From the NCBI RefSeq assembly GCF_964019385.1, contig NC_088643.1:74164965-74228964 (forward strand): a stretch of DNA of 64,000 bases, read 5' to 3'. The notes beneath the pieces were generated by a model, which saw only the letters and a program-made list of their open reading frames with translations, was not told the DNA's origin and made no database searches. Source of the stretch: Sycon ciliatum (taxonomy: Eukaryota > Porifera > Calcarea > Leucosolenida > Sycettidae). Positions 1,021 through 62,440 of the stretch are shown one piece after another; position 1 is the first letter of the stretch; each line of letters opens with the position of its first letter. The position numbers were made by a program, and so were the translations under genes.

Positions 1021-2440
1021 TGCTTACCGTGCTAATAAGCAGTGCAGTGACTGTGACACCACTGCCAGTGCGTATACAGTACATGTACAGTGTAGACTGT
1101 GAACACATGTACTTGTACTGGTAGCTAGTGCCGGAACGTGGACAACAGCCAGCCAGATGATCATCCCGCAAGTCGCCTGTGTTCACACCATAGCTCATCG
1201 AAGTGTTGCTTCTGACCAATATGATCACAACCAAGCAAGGAGCAGCATTACTGAATCGGTCAAGACTTGTTCTCTAGGGATGAAAATGTACGCTGACTGC
1301 TCTGCTTTCCTTCTGCGAAGCTCGGCCCAGCCCAATGTTCTGGTTTTCTCAAACCCTCCAATGGCTGCCCGTTTGTCTGGAACGTGTCCTGCTCTGCGGT
1401 GGAAAGGTGTCTCTTGCGCACCTTTGGTTGATTTGAGGAGCTTGGTGTTTCAAGACTTTGCGCAAAGTGTCACTGCCTTCTCGCTCGTCATACGATTTGG
1501 CACCAAGTTTTCACTACTAAGTCTCTTTGCCCACTGTTTCTGTGTGCTCGTACTTGATGATGCTGGCGATGTCCTTGCCTAGCACCTAGCAGTGTGTTTC
1601 TACATGTAGTTGGTAGTAGTACATTTCCAGACTGCAGTGTACTTTGAAGTAGCACATTCAACCTCAACAATCACGCCATCTGGTCTCAGATTAGACGTTT
1701 TGTGATCCCCAGTATGATTCTGTAGGAAGTTGTATTTCAGCTCGCCAGTGATTTCTTTCCGTGGGAGTGCGTGCCCGTGCATGACCATGCAGTCAGTGGA
1801 CTACTCACACTGCTACTATAATAACCAACAGCTGGCTAGCATTAGAACTCATACGTAAACCATGCTAAACACTGTGAAACCCCTGACAGGGTTGCTAGAC
1901 TTTATTGTAACAACCCTCATGTATGCACATGTACTCCTCTCATGTATACTTCAAAGTTCATGTATGTATCATGTTCAACTAGATAACGTTAACACCAAGC
2001 GTGCACATATCCTGTTGTTGACATGTCTGAGGTCATCAACTTGTCCTTTCCTTTTGTTTCGTTATGAGCTGTCAAAGCCAGCTTGCAATCTGAAGAGTTC
2101 CATACTACTACTGTCTGTTCCAACGTCTTGTGCAGTGTACAGTGCTCCTGCCGTTGCTTCAAGGAGACTCTGCAGTAGAGTCGCGCGCTGAAGAACGTTG
2201 AGCCCGAGAATGTCCAGCCTGAAATGCTAAGAATGCCACAGCCTAAAGTTAAGAACGGTGGTGTTGGTTTTCCGCCAGCTTGTGGGATACATATGATCCA
2301 GCTCGACTTGTTTCTAAGAGCGTGCTATAAGAACGCCGCCATATTGCCCAACGAAATAAGAATGTCCCAGGCGAACCCCTTGGAAACAATGTTCTTGGAC
2401 GCGTGACTCTACTGTATCATTTGCACATGTCCTGGTGACC
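1021..2440. other. No supported gene
   Basis: Short ORFs on both strands, none recognisable. The minus strand between about 1600 and 1390 has codon-like stretches (for example one reading KDIASIIKYEHTETVGKE), but they end in stops without clear splice signals. I see nothing firm. Confidence 0.3.
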
Positions 2441-3578
2441 TCTCAGCTTGACCCGCACCCTCTCAGCTTGACCCGCACCCTCTCAGCTTGACCCGCACCC
2501 TCTCAGCTTGACCCGCACCCTCTCAGCTTGACCCGCACCCTCTCAGCTTGACCCGCACCCTCTCAGCTTGACCCGCACCCTCTCAGCTTGACCCGCACCC
2601 TCTCAGCTTGACCCGCACCCTCTCAGCTTGACCCGCACCCTCTCAGCTTGACCCGCACCCTCTCAGCTTGACCCGCACCCTCTCAGCTTGACCCGCACCC
2701 TCTCAGCTTGACCCGCACCCTCTCAGCTTGACCCGCACCCTCTCAGCTTGACCCGCACCCTCTCAGCTTGACCCGCACCCTCTCAGCTTGACCCGCACCC
2801 TCTCAGCTTGACCCGCACCCTCTCAGCTTGACCCGCACCCTCTCAGCTTGACCCGCACCCTCTCAGCTTGACCCGCACCCTCTCAGCTTGACCCGCACCC
2901 TCTCAGCTTGACCCGCACCCTCTCAGCTTGACCCGCACCCTCTCAGCTTGACCCGCACCCTCTCAGCTTGACCCGCACCCTCTCAGCTTGACCCGCACCC
3001 TCTCAGCTTGACCCGCACCCTCTCAGCTTGACCCGCACCCTCTCAGCTTGACCCGCACCCTCTCAGCTTGACCCGCACCCTCTCAGCTTGACCCGCACCC
3101 TCTCAGCTTGACCCGCACCCTCTCAGCTTGACCCGCACCCTCTCAGCTTGACCCGCACCCTCTCAGCTTGACCCGCACCCTCTCAGCTTGACCCGCACCC
3201 TCTCAGCTTGACCCGCACCCTCTCAGCTTGACCCGCACCCTCTCAGCTTGACCCGCACCCTCTCAGCTTGACCCGCACCCTCTCAGCTTGACCCGCACCC
3301 TCTCAGCTTGACCCGCACCCTCTCAGCTTGACCCGCACCCTCTCAGCTTGACCCGCACCCTCTCAGCTTGACCCGCACCCTCTCAGCTTGACCCGCACCC
3401 TCTCAGCTTGACCCGCACCCTCTCAGCTTGACCCGCACCCTCTCAGCTTGACCCGCACCCTCTCAGCTTGACCCGCACCCTCTCAGCTTGACCCGCACCC
3501 TCTCAGCTTGACCCGCACCCTCTCAGCTTGACCCGCACCCTCTCAGCTTGACCCGCACCCTCTCAGCTTGACCCGCAC
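2441..3578. repeat. 20-bp satellite array, about 57 copies
   Basis: An uninterrupted run of the unit TCTCAGCTTGACCCGCACCC. Every copy I checked is identical and the array ends inside a copy at 3578. Such uniformity suggests very recent expansion or strong homogenisation; the true length could differ from the assembled length. There are no spacers, so it is not a CRISPR array. Confidence 0.97.
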
Positions 3579-4303: not shown

Positions 4304-4347
4304 AAACTGATGAGTCCACAAAGAACGAAACAGATGTCCGCAGATTG
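4304..4347 (+). ncRNA. 5'-truncated hammerhead-ribozyme micro-element (copy A)
   Basis: Contains the hammerhead core CTGATGA (4307-4313), the GAAA box and a GTC cleavage triplet followed by CGCAGATTG, the same 3' end as the copies at 14791 and 21793. The upstream CTGCG strand of stem I is missing, because the copy begins only 3 nt before the core. AGCATG flanks both ends (4298-4303 and 4348-4353), which fits a 5'-truncated retroposed copy with a 6-bp target duplication. Stem II (GTCC/GAAC) has one mismatch. It is probably inactive as a ribozyme. Confidence 0.65.
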
Positions 4348-13288: not shown

Positions 13289-13862
13289 CGCGAGAATGAA
13301 GTTGAAGACACCACTGCAGCTGTACCTATGGTTGATAATATGGTGGTAAAGACACACCTGGCAATATGGCGGTAAACACACGCCTGCCCACACACGCTCT
13401 CTAGGCTGCAAAGTTCTGGCACAGAGCTCTCCTTCTCACCACCACCACCATCAGTTCGCGCCTGGCGCCTGGTCGATGCATGGCTGGCGGTATCCGGCAT
13501 AGCAGGCTGGTACATCAAGTAGCGCATGGCACATAGATGATGACACAGCGCGTCAAGCTCCGTATGAAGACATCCAAGAAGAAGATTGCCTGATGAGTCC
13601 AGCGGGGACGAAACGTACGTCGCAATCGAGCTATGTCGTTGCTGTGTCATCATCTATGTGCCATGCGCTACTTGATGTACCAGCCTGCTATGCCGGATAC
13701 CGCCAGCCATGCATCAACCAGGCGCCAGGCGCGAACTGATGGTGGTGGTGGTGAGAAGGAGAGCTCTGTGCCAGAACTTTGCAGCCTAGAGAGCGTGTGT
13801 GGGCAGGCGTGTGTTTACCGCCATATTGCCAGGTGTGTCTTTACCACTATATTATCAACCAT
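13289..13862 (+). mobile_element. Foldback insertion carrying a hammerhead ribozyme
   Basis: The 12-bp sequence AGGGTCTAGACT stands on both sides (13277-13288 and 13863-13874), so this 574-bp block is an insertion with a target duplication. It consists of a 37-bp leader, a 224-bp left arm (13326-13549), a 91-nt loop (13550-13640) and a 224-bp right arm (13641-13864, its last two bases overlapping the duplication). The arms differ at only two positions by eye. The loop holds a complete hammerhead motif. A 12-bp duplication is unlike the TA/TTAA MITEs here and points to retroposition. The matching ORFs in the two arms have no recognisable similarity and are probably not genes. Confidence 0.8.
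13584..13627 (+). ncRNA. Hammerhead ribozyme (copy D), consensus core
   Basis: Stem I GATTGC (13584-13589) pairs with GCAATC (13622-13627). The core CTGATGA is at 13590-13596; stem II is GTCC (13597-13600) with GGAC (13606-13609) and loop AGCGG; then GAA, and short stem III ACG/CGT (13613-13620). Predicted cleavage follows the GTC triplet, between 13621 and 13622. Every invariant core base of the hammerhead family is present and stems I and II are perfect. Stem I is the open stem (type I). The very short stem III is typical of animal hammerheads, which often work as dimers. Confidence 0.88.
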
Positions 13863-13924
13863 AGGGTCTAGACTGGTTGAAGAAATAAGTTATAAGCCCG
13901 GGCCTTATAATGGAGATAATACGG

Positions 13925-15779
13925 TAGTTGTAAAACGTCAGTACCGTTGGTCAGTGTCGTGCAATGTTATCGCATAAGCTGTCATGAATATCACCACATC
14001 ATGAAGACTACTTCACATCAATTTGAGGTTGCAAGTATAGACTCCCGCATTGCATGATCATATCGTAATTAATTAACAGTCAGTCCAACTTGCCATAACA
14101 TTTTATTATCATATTCCAAATACATTTGAGTTGGGACTTACGATGTCCAACGACGACTCTGATTACCCAGCTGATGGCACGCGTACATTGTGAATCCGAG
14201 TATTCCCAATGTCGCCTCCATCTCATCATATAATTATACTCTCCTGCATGTTTGTCTCTGCTGCTCATCACAAAATACTTAAATCTGAACTTATTTCTTC
14301 TTCTCTGAATGCACTCGTTGCTGCCAAGATTTGTTTTCTTGTAGTTGTATCATTGCATTCCGCAAGATCCGCGCTTGCATGATACAGCCCGGCTGCACAC
14401 CCGCGCGCAAGCCCCAATGTTCTGCATGTCACGTGCTGGTGACTGCATTTTCGGCAGTGCGCTGCGCTACGTTTATAATATGCATATGATTTCCGTCAGG
14501 CTGGCTGCGCCCTTGGCGGGCCAGTGTTTTTTTGGGAGTTTTTTTGTTGTTGTTGGCTAGGTTTTTGATTATGGGAAGGTGAAGTCTTTAGAAAGGAAAC
14601 TGTGGTATGAGAATGAGTCTGATGAGTCTGTCTTCCCCTACCGTTCTCGACATAAGCTGACTGTTCAGTACCTGGTGGTGTTAGTAGACATTATAGCGTA
14701 ACTTGTAGTTCCTTTTGGTCCTTTTTCTTTCCTATAAAATCATCCTTGGCTCTCCATCCGAGTCAAATATCTCATTGCTTCCAGATTTGGCACCATTTTC
14801 TCTGTGCTGCGCTGATGAGCCCACAAAGGAAGAAACAGTTCTGTCCGCAGATTGAGTAGTCATTACATTACATAACTTTGGCCAGCTCCAACATTTTCAA
14901 AAGATAGAGGGTCTCTCTCTAATGTTAGCTACAAGATAGTCACCACAAAACAACATCGTGAATATGGCCATAAACTTACCGTTACCGTTTCGGGACGACT
15001 CCCAAACAACCTTTGGGATTCCTCTACAGAGAAGTCTCCAAACATAGGTCTCGAACATCTAGGATTCGAGGCCATCTTTCTTTCAAATTGCCCAAAACAA
15101 ACTAGAAAGATCAGGATTCTGCAAAGCTGAGCAGTTACTTCTTAGCCAATACAGACTGAAGCAAGTTTCGTGCTAATCCACTGGCTAACACATTCAAATG
15201 AGTCAAAAGCCAACACAAGTGAACTGCAGCATAGCACTGAACTTCTAGATCCTCAAACAGTCAAAGCAAAACTGCAGTAAAAGTGGTTGGCTGAAAATGT
15301 GATAAAAATAAGCAGACTATGGACCATGCATGATGGACAGGCGCATGTGATTCAGTCTCTACACTGACTGTGTGCATGCATGTGACATACGCTTTTATAC
15401 GTAGATCTACTACTGTACAACTACTACTAGTACTAGTACTACGAAATCCGGTCGCACGTCTAGCGGCCGCAGGGCGCTGGCCATGCAGCCGTGAGCACAC
15501 GCGTACACGGCGGTCGTATCGGATCAACATGACTTTGTGCAGTGCATGCACGCAGCGTTCTGTACGCGCTGAGGGCGGCGGCCCCGGTCAATCGACTGGA
15601 TTTCCATGTCCGCCCACGACTAGTCTAGACTACAACTATACTTACAAGTACAAATAAAAGACTACAACTATTACTTAGTACAAGTACAACCAAGAGTACA
15701 TAACTACACAGTTACCCACCGAAGGATGTACCCAGAGTGCTGACAGTGCTATATCAACACCACAAAGGCAGAGCGTAAT
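13925..15779. other. No supported gene
   Basis: Several short ORFs, none recognisable and none with codon-like continuity. The one notable feature is the hammerhead copy at 14791-14854 (separate entry). Confidence 0.4.
14791..14854 (+). ncRNA. Hammerhead-ribozyme micro-element (copy B)
   Basis: Aligns end to end with the 65-nt insertion at 21793: it begins CACCATTTT, continues CTCTGTGCTGCGCTGATGAG and ends CGCAGATTG. Stem I is CTGCG (14807-14811)/CGCAG (14846-14850); the core is CTGATGA (14812-14818); stem III is ACAG/CTGT with a TT loop; the cleavage triplet GTC ends at 14845. Stem II (GCCC/GGAA) keeps only two pairs, so activity is doubtful. No target duplication seen; the preceding CCAGATTTGG resembles the unit's own 3' end and may be a remnant of a tandem neighbour. 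Confidence 0.7.
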
Positions 15780-19351: not shown

Positions 19352-20771
19352 GATCTACGCGCGATCCCCGCGCACGACCTACGACACCACGCAAGATCGA
19401 CGTCTCCAGAACACAACTCGCGAAGACAACAAGAAGCCATCACGTCGTGTCCGACTACACTCCACATATCTTCCTCAGCCTACGTTCACCTTCGACGTCG
19501 ACGACCATCTTACCAGCTCCTCGGACAACCTGGAGAGATCTCCCGGTAAGTCCAAAGTCAACACGCGTGTCTCTCTCAGAGACCCGCCAGTGAGACTTCT
19601 CTTCTCCTTCGATACACCAATAACCGCCGTCCTGTCTGTGTGTTTTATAGCTCCGTCCACCTGACAGAAGACTCAGCCCACGCCACGAAGAACGTGATAC
19701 AACACTAACCCCTTCATCAATAATTAATTAGTAAACAATTTCTCGTTCAACAAAGGATTAATACCGGAGAGCCCAAACCCCCTGGGGGGACGCACAATTA
19801 ATTAACTACGAGTGAACCCAAGACGATCTACGCGCGATCCCCGCGCACGACCTACGACACCACGCAAGATCGACGTCTCCAGAACACAACTCGCGAAGAC
19901 AACAAGAAGCCATCACGTCGTGTCCGACTACACTCCACATATCTTCCTCAGCCTACGTTCACCTTCGACGTCGACGACCATCTTACCAGCTCCTCGGACA
20001 ACCTGGAGAGATCTCCCGGTAAGTCCAAAGTCAACACGCGTGTCTCTCTCAGAGACCCGCCAGTGAGACTTCTCTTCTCCTTCGATACACCAATAACCGC
20101 CGTCCTGTCTGTGTGTTTTATAGCTCCGTCCACCTGACAGAAGACTCAGCCCACGCCACGAAGAACGTGATACAACACTAACCCCTTCATCAATAATTAA
20201 TTAGTAAACAATTTCTCGTTCAACAAAGGATTAATACCGGAGAGCCCAAACCCCCTGGGGGGACGCACAATTAATTAACTACGAGTGAACCCAAGACGAT
20301 CTACGCGCGATCCCCGCGCACGACCTACGACACCACGCAAGATCGACGTCTCCAGAACACAACTCGCGAAGACAACAAGAAGCCATCACGTCGTGTCCGA
20401 CTACACTCCACATATCTTCCTCAGCCTACGTTCACCTTCGACGTCGACGACGATCTTACCAGCTCCTCGGACAACCTGGAGAGATCTCCCGGTAAGTCCA
20501 AAGTCAACACGTGTGTCTCTCTCAGAGACCCGCCAGTGAGACTTCTCTTCTCCTTCGATACACCAATAACCGCCGTCCTGTCTGTGTGTTTTATAGCTCC
20601 GTCCACCTGACAGAAGACTCAGCCCACGCCACGAAGAACGTGATACAACACTAACCCCTTCATCAATAATTAATTAGTAAACAATTTCTCGTTCAACAAA
20701 GGATTAATACCGGAGAGCCCAAACCCCCTGGGGGGACGCACAATTAATTAACTACGAGTGAACCCAAGACG
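19352..20771. repeat. Three-copy tandem array, 473-bp period
   Basis: Units start at 19352, 19825 and 20298 (each with GATCTACGCGCGATCCCCGC) and the array ends exactly after the third. The copies differ at very few sites. Each unit has a GGTAAGTCC donor-like site and, about 105 bp later, a TTTTATAG acceptor-like site. An 84-codon Arg/Ser/Thr-rich frame repeats in each copy without known similarity. Array or promoter-like repeat of an unknown element. Confidence 0.9.
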
Positions 20772-21050
20772 GTCCAGCGCAACAGCCGAGGTAAGCAATG
20801 CTGACTTCCGACATTTGATCCCAAAAACCGGTGTACCTCACCTGAACAACATACTGGAAGCTGCACTGAACTTATGTTTCCATGTTACCAATTGCAACAT
20901 TCCACAAATCATTCATAATTGAAGGAAAAGTAACCCTGAAGCTGATTCAAGAAATATAACTCTGTTTTATTTGTGGAATTCATGAGGTCCGTGAACAAGA
21001 CTATTAGTATTACCAAGACCAACAGCAACAACGAGAACAACACTAAGGAG

Positions 21051-21122
<72 letters not shown>

Positions 21123-21589
21123 CAACGACAATTACAACGACAACAACTATTACAACAACATCAACGTCCATCAACACCCAGACCACAACACCAACGTGCA
21201 GACGGGGTGTTCCGACGTGGTGAAGGCGGCCATGGCCTCGTCGGGACATCACCAACCTCGTCGGCAGCGAGCACCTTCTCACAACAGTCGTCATGGTGAT
21301 GACTATGACTGTTACAGCTGACGAGCTGAGAGAAGGACGCCATGGGCAGAAGTTGAAAAAAGACAAGAAAAAAGAAAAAGAACAAAAGAACAAAAGAAAA
21401 AAGAAATAAATCACAAATAATTTAATTACAGAGGAAGACAAGAAAATAACATCACAAATCCTTCCAGACGTGATCCCTGCAGCGGCAGCAACGTGAACAA
21501 TACTACGGCGGCAACACGACGACTTCTACAACACAAAAAAACGAAAATTATAAAAATCCTACCAACCCGTAGAGTAACGAGGGTCCGAA
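20772..21589. other. Spacer with (AAC)n and A-rich tract
   Basis: 21053-21121 is an (AAC)n run and 21350-21420 is A-rich. The Asn-rich, Leu-rich and Cys-rich ORFs here are products of the microsatellite. The segment lies between inverted repeat copies. Confidence 0.6.
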
Positions 21590-22124
21590 CCTGGGTTTTC
21601 CCAATACGGTTCAAATGGTCGCAAGACCGGGACTCTGCCAACCGGTTTATGGTTGTAGTCTGGAGCACTACGCGTCCTCGCCTTGTAACATGCTGTCAAA
21701 ATCGAAAAACATGTTAACTACCAAGCAAGGCTTCTGTATATAAAGTACTATGATGTAAGGTAGCAAAGGTGGCTACATGTAGTAAGCAATCCCACATTTC
21801 CTCTGTGCTGCGCTGATGAGTTCAAAAAGAACGAAACAGCATGCTGTCCGCAGATTGTGTAGTAAGCAATCCAGTATTCTACAAGCTAATGGCGATGTTG
21901 ACAACAGGTTTGAACGCGTGTCAGTAAAGGAGTGACAAAACTAAACAGCTACAACCTGAAAACAATTCAAAACATTCTTCTTCTTTAAGGCCAAGGGAAA
22001 AATGGCAAGAGTTCTTGCCACCACTTCCCCGACCTCCACCCCTAGGTGGTATCGCGCTTATAATTATAGTCTACTAGCAGCATGCACCCGGCCAGCGTTG
22101 CCTGGCCGAACGTGGCATGCATGC
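21590..22124. repeat. Dispersed repeat, inverted relative to 18880-19351
   Basis: 21600-21705 matches 19185-19310 in reverse. 21735-22080 matches 35150-35420 in reverse, including the block CCACCCCTAGGTGGTATCGC. The Gypsy A insertion at 22125 interrupts it; the remainder continues at 27217. The 65-nt ribozyme insertion is inside it. Confidence 0.75.
21793..21857 (+). ncRNA. Hammerhead-ribozyme micro-insertion (copy C), with 15-bp target duplication
   Basis: TGTAGTAAGCAATCC stands at 21778-21792 and again at 21858-21872, and the related inverted locus near 35375-35400 has it once, so these 65 nt are an insertion. Ribozyme parts: stem I CTGCG (21808-21812)/CGCAG (21849-21853); core CTGATGA (21813-21819); stem II GTTC/GAAC with an AAAAA loop; GAA (21833-21835); stem III ACAG/CTGT with a CATG loop; cleavage triplet GTC ending at 21848. 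All helices are perfect. Relative to a GTCC-type stem II the pairs are changed on both strands, so structure is conserved. Confidence 0.88.
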
Positions 22125-22283
22125 TGTAATAGTTTTACCTTGACACTTCTTGCTTGTCTTATGGTAACACCTTGTGTTCCTACTATTCTCACTCCTGCGG
22201 TTCTCACCTTTCTTTTGCTTTATAACCTCTGGTTTGAACATCATTCGACGAATTCTCCAATCAATCAAGTCTATACTGTTACA
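22125..22283 (+). repeat. Gypsy A 5' LTR
   Basis: Starts TGTAATAG and ends CTGTTACA. It contains TTATAACC near its middle as a possible core-promoter element. Identical to the 3' LTR. Confidence 0.95.
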
Positions 22284-22284
22284 C

Positions 22285-22303
22285 TGGTAGCTTGAGGATG
22301 GTT
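22285..22303 (+). promoter_or_regulatory. Gypsy A primer-binding site (initiator tRNA-Met type)
   Basis: TGGTAGC-TTG-AGGATGGTT lies one base after the 5' LTR. It matches the complement of the conserved initiator tRNA-Met 3' end except for one extra base and one mismatch; Gypsy B has the exact version. The gag ATG (22298) is inside the site. Confidence 0.75.
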
Positions 22304-28328: not shown

Positions 28329-28383
28329 TCTACTTCAGACAGCTGTTTCGCTAATACATAGCTCATCAGTACAGTGAAGGTAG
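28329..28383 (-). ncRNA. Hammerhead ribozyme (copy E)
   Basis: Minus strand: core CTGATGA (28369-28363); stem II GCTA (28362-28359)/TAGC (28353-28350) with loop TGTAT; GAA (28349-28347); stem III ACA/TGT; cleavage triplet GTC, cut between 28338 and 28337. Stem I is imperfect: A-T and G-T next to the core, then an internal loop, then AAG/CTT and TAG/CTA around a bulged C. An internal loop in stem I facing the stem II loop is the usual arrangement for tertiary contacts in natural hammerheads. Its sequence is unrelated to copies A-D outside the core. Confidence 0.62.
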
Positions 28384-31594: not shown

Positions 31595-33565
31595 CTATTG
31601 GTCTTTTAGGAGACCTTCAACTTCACTGGGGGTGAGGCTCTTACCGTTCTGGGTTATTGTGTCCTTTGGTAGATGGCATATAATGCCTTTAGAGCGCAGG
31701 GCCTTGTACTGGGGTACCAAAGCACGTCGGCGTTCCTGTTCTCCCCTGGTCAGGTCGTGTGACACGTACACATTTACATCATGGTGCTTGGCCCTTGTCT
31801 TGTAATTGTTGCGCATCAGTTTAGCTTTGCCATGGCTGGTGAGGGTGGCGCGCACCAGGCGCGACTGCTCCGTTTGGCGTCTTGGAGTGATGCGCTCCGC
31901 CGAGAGGATATCACTGGTGTCCAAATCCGGCACCAGGTGAGCAACAGTACGTTTTAGGTCTTCACCTGTGTTCTCCGTGATCCCGCGCAGGATCACATTA
32001 TCAGCACGTCTTCGCTGTTCACTGGCCTCCTCCACCAGTTCCCGTATGAGGGAGACATTCGCTGTGCCGATTTTGCTGTTGGGTATCAGTGGTGGCGTCT
32101 GGCTGTCTAGACGTCACGTCATCCAGCTTCTTCTCAAGTTCCGTAATGGCGGAACGTGCTCCATCATCTATTTTTGATACATTCTGTACCTGTCTCTCAA
32201 CAAGGCCTTTCAGTTTGCGTGTCTCGGCATTGAGACGGTTGAGCTCGATAGCGTGCTCCGCGATGAGCTTCTCGGCGGCTGTGAGGCGTTTGTCTAGAGC
32301 CTGGACCAGTTCTTTTCCGATCGTCGTGAGGTCTGCACGAATTTCTTGTTTGAAGTCTGCGAAGGGCACTTGTAAGTTCGCCACCAGATCCTGGTGCGCA
32401 CAGTCGTTTGCGCTAGCTGTTACAGGAGCGCTGCCCAATTTGCGGACCACTTTCGGCGCGCCTGACTGACTGCAGGTGATATCAGTGCTCGCGTCCGAAA
32501 TGCAGTGCAGACTTTCCGTCGGACTTTCAGGCTTACGCTTGCCGCAGAGGGGCTGAGGGCTAGACCCACAGGACACTTCTGATTCTAACTCACTAGACCT
32601 TCTCTTTCTTAAAGGGGAAGTTAAGGCAAAAATTAAAATTTCACCAGTTGTAGTCTTCGGGGTGCTGAGTCGAATGGTCGTGGTCCGAGGAAGCTGAGAC
32701 GCTCCCTTCCTACTTGAATCCCAATCGAACTCGTGCACTTCCACCGAAACTGGGTGACTGCGCCCTACTAGATGGGGATTTGTATGCAAAATGTCACTAA
32801 AAGCGCCATTTCGTTCTTATAAAAGCACGGATGACCGCGATTGGCCCATATGTTGTAGTCTTTTGGACGCTGAGTCGACTGGTTTTGGTCCGAAAAGGCT
32901 GCGATGCAGCGTTCCTCCTTTATTCCCAATCGAACATGGTTGAACAAGCGGTCACGTGCTCCTGCGTACACCAGTCACCTGGTCACCGGGCCTGCAGGGT
33001 ACAACTTACTAGCCTGTTTGACCTTTTTTGGGTGCAGTCCTGTCACTCGAGTTCGAGTTGAACCTTGGTGTGAAAGTAACAAGTTGTCGCCTGCTGGCGT
33101 GGTGACCAGGTGATTTGGGCACCCAGGACCACGTGACCGCTTGTTCAACCATGTTCGATTGGAAATAAAGGAGGAACGCTGCATCGCAGCCTTTTCGGAC
33201 CAAAACCAGTCGACTCAGCGTCCAAAAGACTACAACATATGGGCCAATCGCGGTCATCCGTGCTTTTATAAGAACAAAATGGCGCTTTTAGTGACATTTT
33301 GCATACAAATCCCCATCTAGTAGGGCGCAGTCACCCAGTTTCGGTGGAAGTGCGCGAGTTCGATTGGGATTCAAGTAGGAAGGGAGCGTCTCAGCTTTCT
33401 CGGACCAAGACCATTCGACTCAGCACCCCGAAGACTACAACTGGTGAAATTTTAATTTTTGCCTTAACTATTACTTACTTCCCTTAAGCTTGCATTCAGT
33501 TTCGGCGGGGACAATGCCCCCGACACACGACCAACCAAATCCTTAACTGTCTTTGAAGCCATCAT
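31595..33565 (-). pseudogene. LINE-2 ORF1, interrupted by a MITE and one frameshift
   Basis: Starts at ATG 33565 (MMASKTVKDLVGRVSGAL), breaks at 33488, and resumes at 32608 with a basic/Ser-rich stretch, a coiled-coil segment (LDKRLTAAEKLIAEHAIELN) and, after a shift near 32085, an RRM-like domain (NVILRGITE, HHDVNVYVSHDLT) to the stop at 31595. Leaving out the MITE and one TTAA keeps the frame. ORF1 proteins of this kind bind LINE RNA. Confidence 0.78.
32613..33483. mobile_element. piggyBac-like MITE with long arms (copy 1)
   Basis: Flanked by TTAA on both sides (32609-32612, 33484-33487). The left end AGGGGAAGTTAAGGC has an imperfect inverse at the right end. Inverted arms of about 360 bp surround a short centre; each arm carries TTATAAAAGCACGG, a TATA-box-like sequence. 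No transposase. TTAA duplication is the hallmark of the piggyBac superfamily. Confidence 0.85.
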
Positions 33566-34197: not shown

Positions 34198-35091
34198 AGG
34201 GGAAGTTAAAACAATATCAGTCGTTAATGACTGATGCACCGCTAAGGGTTAAGGCAAAAATTAAAATTTCACCAGTTGTAGTCTTCGGGGTGCTGAGGCG
34301 AATGGTCTTGGTCCGAGGAAGCTGAGACGCTCCCTTCCTACTTGAATCCCAATCGAACTCGCGCACTTCCACCGATACTGGGTGACTGCGCCCTACTATA
34401 ACTTAAGTTTTGTAGATGGGGATTTGTATGCAAAATGTCACTAAAAGCGCCATTTCGTTCTTATAAAAGCACGGATGACCGCGATTGGCCCATATGTTGT
34501 AGTCTTTTGGACGCTGAGTCGACTGGTTTTGGTCCGAAAAGGCTGCGATGCAGCGTTCCTTCTTTATTCCCAATCGAACATGGTTGAACAAGCGGTCACG
34601 TGCTCCTGGGTGCCCAAATCACCTGGTCACCACGCCAGCAGGCGAGAACTTTCACACCAAGGTTCAACTCGAGTTCAACTCGAGTGACAGGATTGCACCC
34701 AAAAAAGGTCAAACAGGCTAGTAAGTTGTACCCTGCAGGCACGGTGACCAGGTGACTGGCGTACGCAGGAGCACGTGACCGCTTGTTCAACCATGTTCGA
34801 TTGGGAATAAAGGAGGAACGCTGCATCGCAGCCTTTTCGGACCAAAACCAATCGACTCAGCGTCCAAAAGACTACAACATATGGGCCAATCGCGAAATGG
34901 CGCTTTTAGTGACATTTTGCATACAAATCCCCATCTAGTAGGGCGCAGTCACCCAGTTTCGGTGGAAGTGCGCGAGTTCGATTGGGATTCAAGTAGGAAG
35001 GGAGCGTCTCAGCTTCCTCGGACCACGACCATTCGACTCAGCACCCCGAAGACTACAACTGGTGAAATTTTAATTTTTGCCTTAACTTCCC
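34198..35091. mobile_element. piggyBac-like MITE with long arms (copy 2)
   Basis: Same family as copy 1. The left TTAA is intact (34194-34197); at the right end CTTCCCCT is followed by AAG, so the right TTAA is damaged. Near the left end it has about 40 extra bases with an ATCAGTC/GACTGAT palindrome. Arms and centre are as in copy 1. Confidence 0.8.
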
Positions 35092-35524
35092 CTAAGTCTC
35101 TTGCCATTTTTCCAATTATTTACTCCTCAGGTTAGGTCGTCCTTTCATGCTCGTACTCGTAGACTGTATATAAGCGCGATACCACCTAGGGGTGGAGGTC
35201 GGGGACGTGGTGGCCAGATCTCTTGCCATTTCCCCTTGGCCTTGAAGAATAAGAATGTTTTGAATTGTTTTCAGGTTGTAGCTGTTTAGTTTTGTCACTC
35301 CTTTACTGACACGCGCGTACAAACCTGTTGTCAACATTTACCGCCATTAGCTTGTGAAGAACTTTTCCCATGCTAGAATACTGGATTGCTTACTACATGT
35401 AGCCACCTTTGCTACCTTACATCATAGTACTTGTATGTTTATTACATCAATGAACAGAACTGAGCATGAGGTCATGTCTACAGGCATGCCCAATCTACAT
35501 GATTGTAGACCCGGTTTCAACCAT
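35092..35524. repeat. Dispersed repeat, inverted relative to 21735-22080 and 27500-27610
   Basis: The block containing GGTGGAGGTCGGGGACGTGG and the block GTTGACAACAGGTTTG-inverse match those regions in reverse. It includes the empty version of the ribozyme insertion site (GGATTGCTTACTACA once, near 35383-35397). Confidence 0.7.
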
Positions 35525-50036: not shown

Positions 50037-50320
50037 CCATCCCTCCCTCCTAAGCGAGGCACAGGTGCCTCCAGGGAGTCGAGGAATATGTGGAAAGGGA
50101 ATAATCAAATGAAATCGTGTCAACCCAACAACGCTCATCTAATTGAAGCACCGTGCAAGGTAACCAAGGACAGTCAGGCGAGTGAAGATAGCGGAAATGG
50201 GGAAAATCTAAAACAGGAGGGGAATGGATGGCTTAACACAACAAGGATCAAGTGGGAATTCTCAAGGTACACGTGCAATTGAATTTGAGCGAGTAACATT
50301 TCGCGGTAACCATAGTGTCA

Positions 50321-61684: not shown

Positions 61685-61792
61685 TGTTGTGAACCCTCTA
61701 AGATTCTCTAAATTGTCAGGATCGTACGACCACACGGCACGAGGACAACTCTTTTCCTTTACACAGTATATTTCACTTCATCGAATAATTAA
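61685..61792 (-). repeat. BEL LTR (element 5' side), partial, with primer-binding region
   Basis: The LTR ends (minus sense) in GGTTCACAACA at 61685; just after it TTTGGCGACCACGCCAGGAT (61684-61665) is the primer-binding region typical in position and wording for BEL/Pao. The same LTR sequence is at 35525. It is cut at 61792 by a MITE at TTAA. Confidence 0.75.
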
Positions 61793-62440
61793 AGGGGAAG
61801 TTAAGGCAAAAATTAAAATTTCACCAGTTGTAGTCTTCGGGGTGCTGAGTCGAATGGTCGTGGTCCGAGGAAGCTGAGACGCTCCCTTCCTACTTGAATC
61901 CCAATCGAACTCGCGCACTTCCACCGAAACTGGGTGACTGCGCCCTACGAGATGGGGATTTGTATGCAAAATGTCACTAAAAGCGCCATTTCGTTCTTAT
62001 AAAAGCACGGATGACCGCGATTGGCCCATATGTTGTAGTCTTTTGGACGCTGAGTCGACTGGTTTTGGTCCGAAAAGGCTGCGATGCAGCGTTCCGCCTT
62101 TATTCCCAATCGAACATGGTTGAACAAGTGGTCACGTGCTCCTGCGTACGCCAGTCACCTGGTCACCGTGCCTGCAGGGTACAACTTACTTACTAGCCTG
62201 TTTGACCTTTTTTGGGTGCAGTCCTGTCACTCGAGTTGAACTCGAGTTGAACCTTGGTGTGAAAGTTGTCACCTGCTGGCGTGGTGACCAGGTGATTTGG
62301 GCACCCAGGAGCACGTGACCACTTGTTCAACCATGTTCGATTGGGAATAAAGGAGGAACGCTGCATCGCAGCCTTTTCGGACCAAAACCAGTCGACTCAG
62401 CGTCCAAAAGACTACAACATATGGGCCAATCGCGGTCATC
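61793..62440. mobile_element. piggyBac-like MITE (copy 3), right part outside or lost
   Basis: Begins AGGGGAAGTTAAGGC after TTAA (61789-61792); the LTR copy at 35525 has one TTAA at this point. It matches copies 1 and 2 until CGCGGTCATC at 62440, where LINE-8 starts. The remaining right arm should follow LINE-8 beyond the window. Confidence 0.82.

Follow-up and report, generated by a model that had tools for sequence, protein, structure and literature searches.

A ribozyme-bearing 65-nt insertion in the genome of the sponge Sycon ciliatum and its likely origin from a tandem retrozyme

In a window of 64,000 nt from the calcareous sponge Sycon ciliatum (NCBI RefSeq assembly GCF_964019385.1, contig NC_088643.1, positions 74,164,965 to 74,228,964 of the forward strand), a 65-nt insert at 21793..21857 (+) carries a hammerhead ribozyme motif. 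We hold with high confidence that this insert is a 5′-truncated insertion of a retrozyme of the non-long-terminal-repeat (non-LTR) type, that is, of a non-coding tandem repeat of 226–228 nt with a type I hammerhead. From the alignment to the 228-bp unit, the insert is the 3′ terminal part of the element (approximately unit positions 160–224), with a 97.1% match over 21792–21861. The element adds a new family to the animal non-LTR retrozymes, which are a known kind, and the window copy is an extreme case of 5′ truncation.

The insertion and its parent element

The insert is flanked by two exact copies of a 15-bp target duplication, TGTAGTAAGCAATCC, as an earlier note on this DNA had observed. 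The left copy, found by repeat search, lies at 21778..21792 (+) with TACA just before it, and the right copy at 21858..21872 (+). The only other exact match in the window is at 35383–35397 (−), and a search allowing up to three mismatches added a fourth at 50226–50240 (−), with three. This 15-bp pair was the sole direct-repeat family reported in 21400–22300. At the insertion junction a TACA^TGTA palindrome is present, as GGCTACA^TGTAGTAAGC, and the 5′ join shows a CC microhomology.

The match at 35383–35397 is the empty site of a paralogue. The alignable part of the host repeat that took in the insert spans 21743..22084 (+), and its inverted relative at 35146..35432 (−) holds the 15-bp sequence once, with no insert, which bears out the unfilled site described before. 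When the insert and one repeat are removed, the filled and empty loci agree at every one of the 58 bp spanning the junction, and their identity over 259 aligned positions is 96.1%. A genome search with the host repeat returned 43 match rows (45 candidates, 40 scored), which were read as coordinates, the alignments themselves not being seen. Thirty-eight of these rows, the query included, span the site in one piece, with 76–168 target bases, too short for the insert. Two of the remaining five are the halves of the window copy and overlap by exactly the 15-bp duplication; of the other three, two come from one copy without the site-bearing part and one covers another part only. Since the paralogue is empty and the host-repeat rows are unbroken, the insertion is real and took place after the host repeat had spread. 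Precise loss of the 65 nt from the 35-kb copy, by recombination between 15-bp repeats in an ancestrally filled repeat, would leave the same empty site; this is most improbable, given that 38 of 43 rows are unbroken, that none is long enough for 80 extra bases, and that the window copy alone is split at the site with the repeat doubled. The target duplication and the empty site thus support insertion by a route of the target-primed reverse transcription type, as proposed earlier.

The parent element was found by searching the genome (538 Mb) with a 95-bp stretch, which gave 40 scored matches of 86 candidates, 32 of which end immediately beyond the insert, at query position 84. Thirty-seven genomic stretches of about 6 kb, selected from these matches, were examined. 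In them the 65 nt are the end of a 228-bp tandem unit, and a second subfamily has a 226-bp unit. Seven loci (L010, L013, L014, L020, L023, L034 and L041) hold 3 to 8 chained unit matches each, and the genome contains 1730 exact internal unit junctions (reversed-pattern control, 0). The two units measured have a G+C content of 48.2% and 49.1%. Short flanks beside the arrays vary from copy to copy. Unit identity is 99.2% within arrays (45 pairs) and 95.9% between arrays (621 pairs). Such homogeneity fits several laps on one circle, and copying of an array or later exchange would do likewise. At L020, retrozyme copies stand in both orientations close together. A viral link was considered and set aside: a 19-base query gave one exact match, in a contig without an Rfam hammerhead, and we took it as chance.

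The hammerhead motif of the insert has the core bases CTGATGA, GAAA and GTC, all within 21793–21857, and the three helices can be drawn with 13 of 13 pairs standard, in agreement with what had been noticed from the letters. The core CTGATGAG..CGAAAC with stem II lies at 21813..21837 (+), as found by pattern search and drawn pairing. As a type I hammerhead, the drawing has 5 bp in stem I, 4 bp in stem II and 4 bp in stem III with a 2-nt loop; this loop is tight, and a stem III of 3 bp is equally likely. The pattern CTGATGAGN{3,30}CGAAAC has four matches in the window, against 0.01 expected. By the NUH rule a hammerhead cuts after GTC, and self-cleavage at TGTC (21845..21848, +) is predicted after C21848, 9 nt before the 3′ end of the insert.

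Two further truncated copies of the same retrozyme lie in the window. The longer, at 14773..14854 (+), is more diverged (about 83% to the unit), its hammerhead core CGAAA is changed to AGAAA, and no target duplication was found around it. The shorter, at 4307..4347 (+), has 41 nt aligned and a possible 6-bp duplication, AGCATG.

Insert lengths and target sites

The earlier note had taken the 65 nt for a separate mobile unit, a hammerhead-only retroposon whose 65-nt RNA was transcribed and copied as such. The sequence contains the entire ribozyme and little besides, and five early copies begin at unit positions 159–162 (the window copy at 21.8 kb, L020, L021, L025 and L033). These first loci had been picked by a query favouring copies with the whole 65 nt. 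We have therefore relied on a pattern blind to truncation, consisting of 18 bases (the last 14 of the element followed by TGTA), which catches inserts of at least 14 nt at such targets. It has 68 matches in the genome (control, 0), all of which were examined, 39 in newly fetched stretches and 29 in earlier loci. Two (L061 and L075) turned out to be junctions between units inside arrays, altered at one base. The remaining 66 insert ends have 52 distinct 20-base flanks, 51 of which yielded a length; merging by flank collapses four different AT-repeat insertions (L017, L021, L032 and L083) into one, and the length at L084 is bounded by the fetched stretch.

The 51 lengths span 15 to about 900 nt, with 6 inserts below 30 nt, 13 of 30–59 nt, 3 of 60–69 nt, 1 of 70–89 nt, 6 of 90–119 nt, 7 of 120–227 nt and 15 longer, so that 22 of 51 are shorter than 70 nt. 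In this sample the 3′ end is constant and the 5′ end runs continuously from 15 nt to several units. Those copies with a clear duplication have lengths of 15, 16, 17, 20, 22, 33, 34, 36, 39, 40, 57, 57, 63, 65 (the window insert), 95, 97, 108, 113 and 166 nt and longer. Because the lengths run from 15 to about 900 nt, the 65 nt are one chance truncation. Inserts of 60–69 nt make up only 3 of 51 (L021, merged with an AT-repeat flank, would add one), while 19 are shorter and 29 longer, and many copies run on into the rest of the 228-bp unit; a discrete 65-nt retroposon is therefore very unlikely. The claim of a separate unit fails, since the sequence is the 3′ end of the retrozyme, and that of a 65-nt RNA template fares no better against a length continuum without a peak at 65 nt. 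The note's own alternative, that all copies lie in one larger repeat at the same place, is likewise not what was found: the copies are dispersed, with their own flanks and duplications.

The five early copies had also suggested a hairpin roadblock, with 5′ ends accumulating directly 3′ of a stable hairpin near unit positions 114–158. In the truncation-blind sample the 60–69 nt and 70–89 nt classes hold 3 and 1 of 51 inserts, with no peak at 65 nt, and we regard this idea as weak; there may be a dip in the lengths inside the hairpin. At the lower extreme, the insertions at L062, L047 and L055 are of 15–17 nt and still have target duplications of 11–15 bp. Insertions of this size would normally escape notice.

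An exact duplication of at least 8 bp at the 5′ junction was found in 25 of the 52 distinct copies, with lengths of 8–17 bp, most commonly 15 (seven copies) and 13 (five). Among the 51 arrays described below, duplications of at least 7 bp were present in 31, compared with 6.4% for randomly re-paired flanks, and of at least 10 bp in 24, compared with 3.6%, simple-repeat targets inflating both figures. The preferred target is the palindrome TACA^TGTA, since TACA precedes TGTA in 15 of the 25 clear duplications, compared with 444 out of 3746 TGTA sites across the window plus the fetched stretches (binomial P of 1e-8, with a background that includes the retrozyme loci themselves and copies that are not fully independent). 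At L023 and L029 the element extends two bases further and TGTA still follows, which hints at an endonuclease preference rather than RNA pairing alone.

The fixed 3′ end and the copying template

Insertions that differ only in their 5′ reach have a common 3′ end (...GTC^CGCAGATTG). The set consists of 51 chained matches from the 37 loci and the window, one 23-nt fragment at L019 having been dropped first; most of the 37 loci were chosen by a query that reaches the CAGATTG end. In 50 of these 51 arrays CAGATTG stands at the expected end, and matching ceases within a few bases of it. The exception is at L020, where one copy ends with GTCCG in place of GATTG. A doubled 3′ end was seen at L060, with a truncated copy ending GCAGATTG, then AACA, a second CTGTCCGCAGATTG and then TGTA.

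This common end lies 9 nt beyond the predicted ribozyme cut. A self-cut monomer would end at GTC, and the long inserts contain runs of several similar units; for these two reasons a circle or an uncut multimer probably served as template, rather than a self-cut monomer. The insertion route is well supported. By this route an endonuclease preferring TACA^TGTA would make staggered cuts in the target, about 15 bp apart, and the nicked strand would prime copying of the retrozyme RNA by reverse transcription from a single internal position, which lies 9 nt beyond the ribozyme cut. In the window copy the enzyme would have released after 65 nt, with the CC microhomology at the 5′ join. The template in this scheme would be a circle (or an uncut multimer), with less certainty than the route.

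As a tentative proposal, which we rate as possible and short of probable, the circles would themselves be copied in rolling fashion through target-primed reverse transcription, carried out by the TACA^TGTA-preferring endonuclease with its stagger of about 15 bp, the copying starting 9 nt past the ligated cut site and early release littering the genome with ribozyme-only or even 15-nt insertions. If so, the ribozyme would both make the circle and mark the start of copying, and the complementary DNA primed from a TACATGTA target would start at CAATCTGCG and make more than one lap on the circle. The same element and route with an uncut multimeric linear transcript as the template is a serious possibility too, though one we would not call probable. 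It accounts equally well for the long inserts and for the fixed 3′ end, and a Penelope-like element of the anole starts reverse transcription inside its RNA and unprocessed RNA is proposed to be the dominant substrate in vitro (PMC11167929). This in vitro internal initiation is also a precedent for internal starts in general (PMC11167929).

Several observations weigh against the picture of a hammerhead retrozyme inserted at TACA^TGTA from a circular or multimeric template. With respect to the ribozyme, the Rfam match is below threshold (Hammerhead_HH9, 26.3 bits for a gathering score of 52, E 0.027), none of four array loci reached the hammerhead gathering score in Rfam, and the isolated 65 nt, folded freely to minimum energy, do not take up exactly the hammerhead structure. 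With respect to the arrays, homogeneity is uneven, within-array identity being only 95.9% at L034 and 97.8% at L014; identical units are also found in different arrays, and the homogeneity could come from later unequal exchange. As to the duplications, 27 of the 52 distinct copies lack an exact one of at least 8 bp (for some of them the fetched flank was too short), and some of the shortest, of 8–9 bp in TACATG-repeat DNA, may be chance. TGTA belongs to the search pattern and is constant by construction, the preceding bases being free. Where GATTG is followed by a base other than A, only 68 of 182 copies go on with TGTA, and the rest are mostly unread. Other 3′ flanks among the 51 arrays are AGTA, AGCA, AGAA, TGGA and AACA; for the AGTA-flanked copies the exact end is indistinguishable from the unit's own next bases.

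Known systems, the partner enzyme and other repeats

The metazoan non-LTR retrozymes are non-coding tandem repeats of 170–400 nt (220–240 bp in coral), with a type I hammerhead in each unit, arranged as dimers to long arrays, with a G+C content below 50% and no LTR, and where they have target duplications these exceed 4 bp (Cervera and de la Pena 2020, PMC7229834; review PMC7761336). The class is further characterised by the lack of a primer-binding site (PBS) and polypurine tract (PPT), by self-cleavage, and by linear and circular RNA forms. The Sycon element resembles them in its units of 226/228 bp, chained up to eight times and with 1730 exact junctions, in its type I hammerhead (checked on the window insert, and below the Rfam gathering score), in its G+C content of 48–49%, and in its target duplications of 8–17 bp in 25 of 52 copies. 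We assign it to the animal non-LTR retrozymes because size, tandem layout, type I hammerhead, G+C content and long duplications fit the description in PMC7229834. It differs from the retrozymes as these sources present them (PMC7229834, PMC7761336) in having very short 5′-truncated copies, a constant 3′ end placed 9 nt beyond the cut, and TACA^TGTA as its target. Words for truncation, 'insertion site' and TGTA do not occur in the main text of PMC7229834, supplements aside, and the fixed start and TACA^TGTA target are undescribed in the open-licence literature searched, supplements again aside.

Which enzyme moves animal retrozymes, and whether the circle is copied, are left open in those accounts (PMC7229834, PMC7761336). 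The fixed start of reverse transcription relative to the ribozyme cut, and the palindromic target with its 13–15 bp duplication, are two usable fingerprints here, and any autonomous element that shares the target fingerprint would be a candidate partner. Truncation of retrozyme copies is also one way by which solitary hammerhead motifs, dispersed through animal genomes, can arise.

Penelope-like elements with minimal hammerheads resemble the retrozyme in their internal start of reverse transcription, 5′ truncation and tandem copies, and their hammerhead sits in the terminal repeat (PMC11167929, PMC3846280). Such elements are present in the Sycon genome, with 13 GIY-YIG matches (150 of 944 candidates scored) and frames of up to 807 aa. 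Of the ten matches examined (L086–L095), seven have a hammerhead-like motif 3′ of the frame; at L087, L088, L090, L091, L094 and L095 it is a minimal motif (CTGATGAAGGC..GCCGAAACGTT or similar). The presence of such elements and motifs is what would favour deriving the 65 nt from the 3′ terminus of a Penelope-like element that is autonomous and has a minimal hammerhead. When two retrozyme units were compared with seven of the GIY-YIG loci (L087–L093), however, no similarity better than E 0.16 appeared. TGTA followed none of five distinct Penelope-like 3′ junctions, their ends being estimated from where the copies cease to be alike, and these estimated ends differ from the retrozyme 3′ end. At 226–228 bp, moreover, the retrozyme unit does not have a reverse transcriptase and GIY-YIG frame, and a Penelope-like origin of the 65 nt is extremely unlikely. 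The Penelope-like elements, by contrast with the retrozyme, are protein-coding with a different 3′ end, the members here have other junction flanks, and the anole enzyme prefers ATT as opposed to TACA^TGTA (PMC11167929).

Short interspersed elements (SINEs) and 5′-truncated copies of long interspersed elements (LINEs) have a constant 3′ end, a variable 5′ end, a target duplication of about 15 bp and 5′ microhomology. The retrozyme copies share all of these features, but their 3′ end carries a ribozyme and not a LINE tail. The tails of three LINEs in the window are microsatellites, (AACC)n, (ACT)n and (AAT)n, unlike the retrozyme end. A protein search with one LINE frame had a best hit with 100% identity across 74% of the query, and among its 34 hits the only two from named organisms were distant insect sequences. 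A LINE- or Penelope-type enzyme had been named before as the likely copying enzyme, and either type may be the partner; neither the sampled Penelope-like elements, with five junctions, nor these three LINE tails match.

Two other hammerhead motifs were seen in the window. The one at 13584–13627 (+), within about 13290–13870, is above the Rfam gathering score (35.4 bits); by eye it forms the centre of a long inverted repeat, and its sequence is unlike the retrozyme studied here. The other, at 28345–28369 (−), has a core (CTGATGAGCTATGTATTAGCGAAAC) of different sequence, with a short inverted repeat adjoining. As for the remaining repeats, 2439–3578 contains a tandem array whose 60-bp unit is present about 19 times, the self-matches listed being 100% identical, and 19352–20774 contains about three tandem copies of approximately 475 bp, with self-matches of 99.4–99.7%. 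The related repeats at 32609–33468, 34248–35093 and 61789–62440 match each other in both orientations (86–96%), and therefore seem to be internally inverted.
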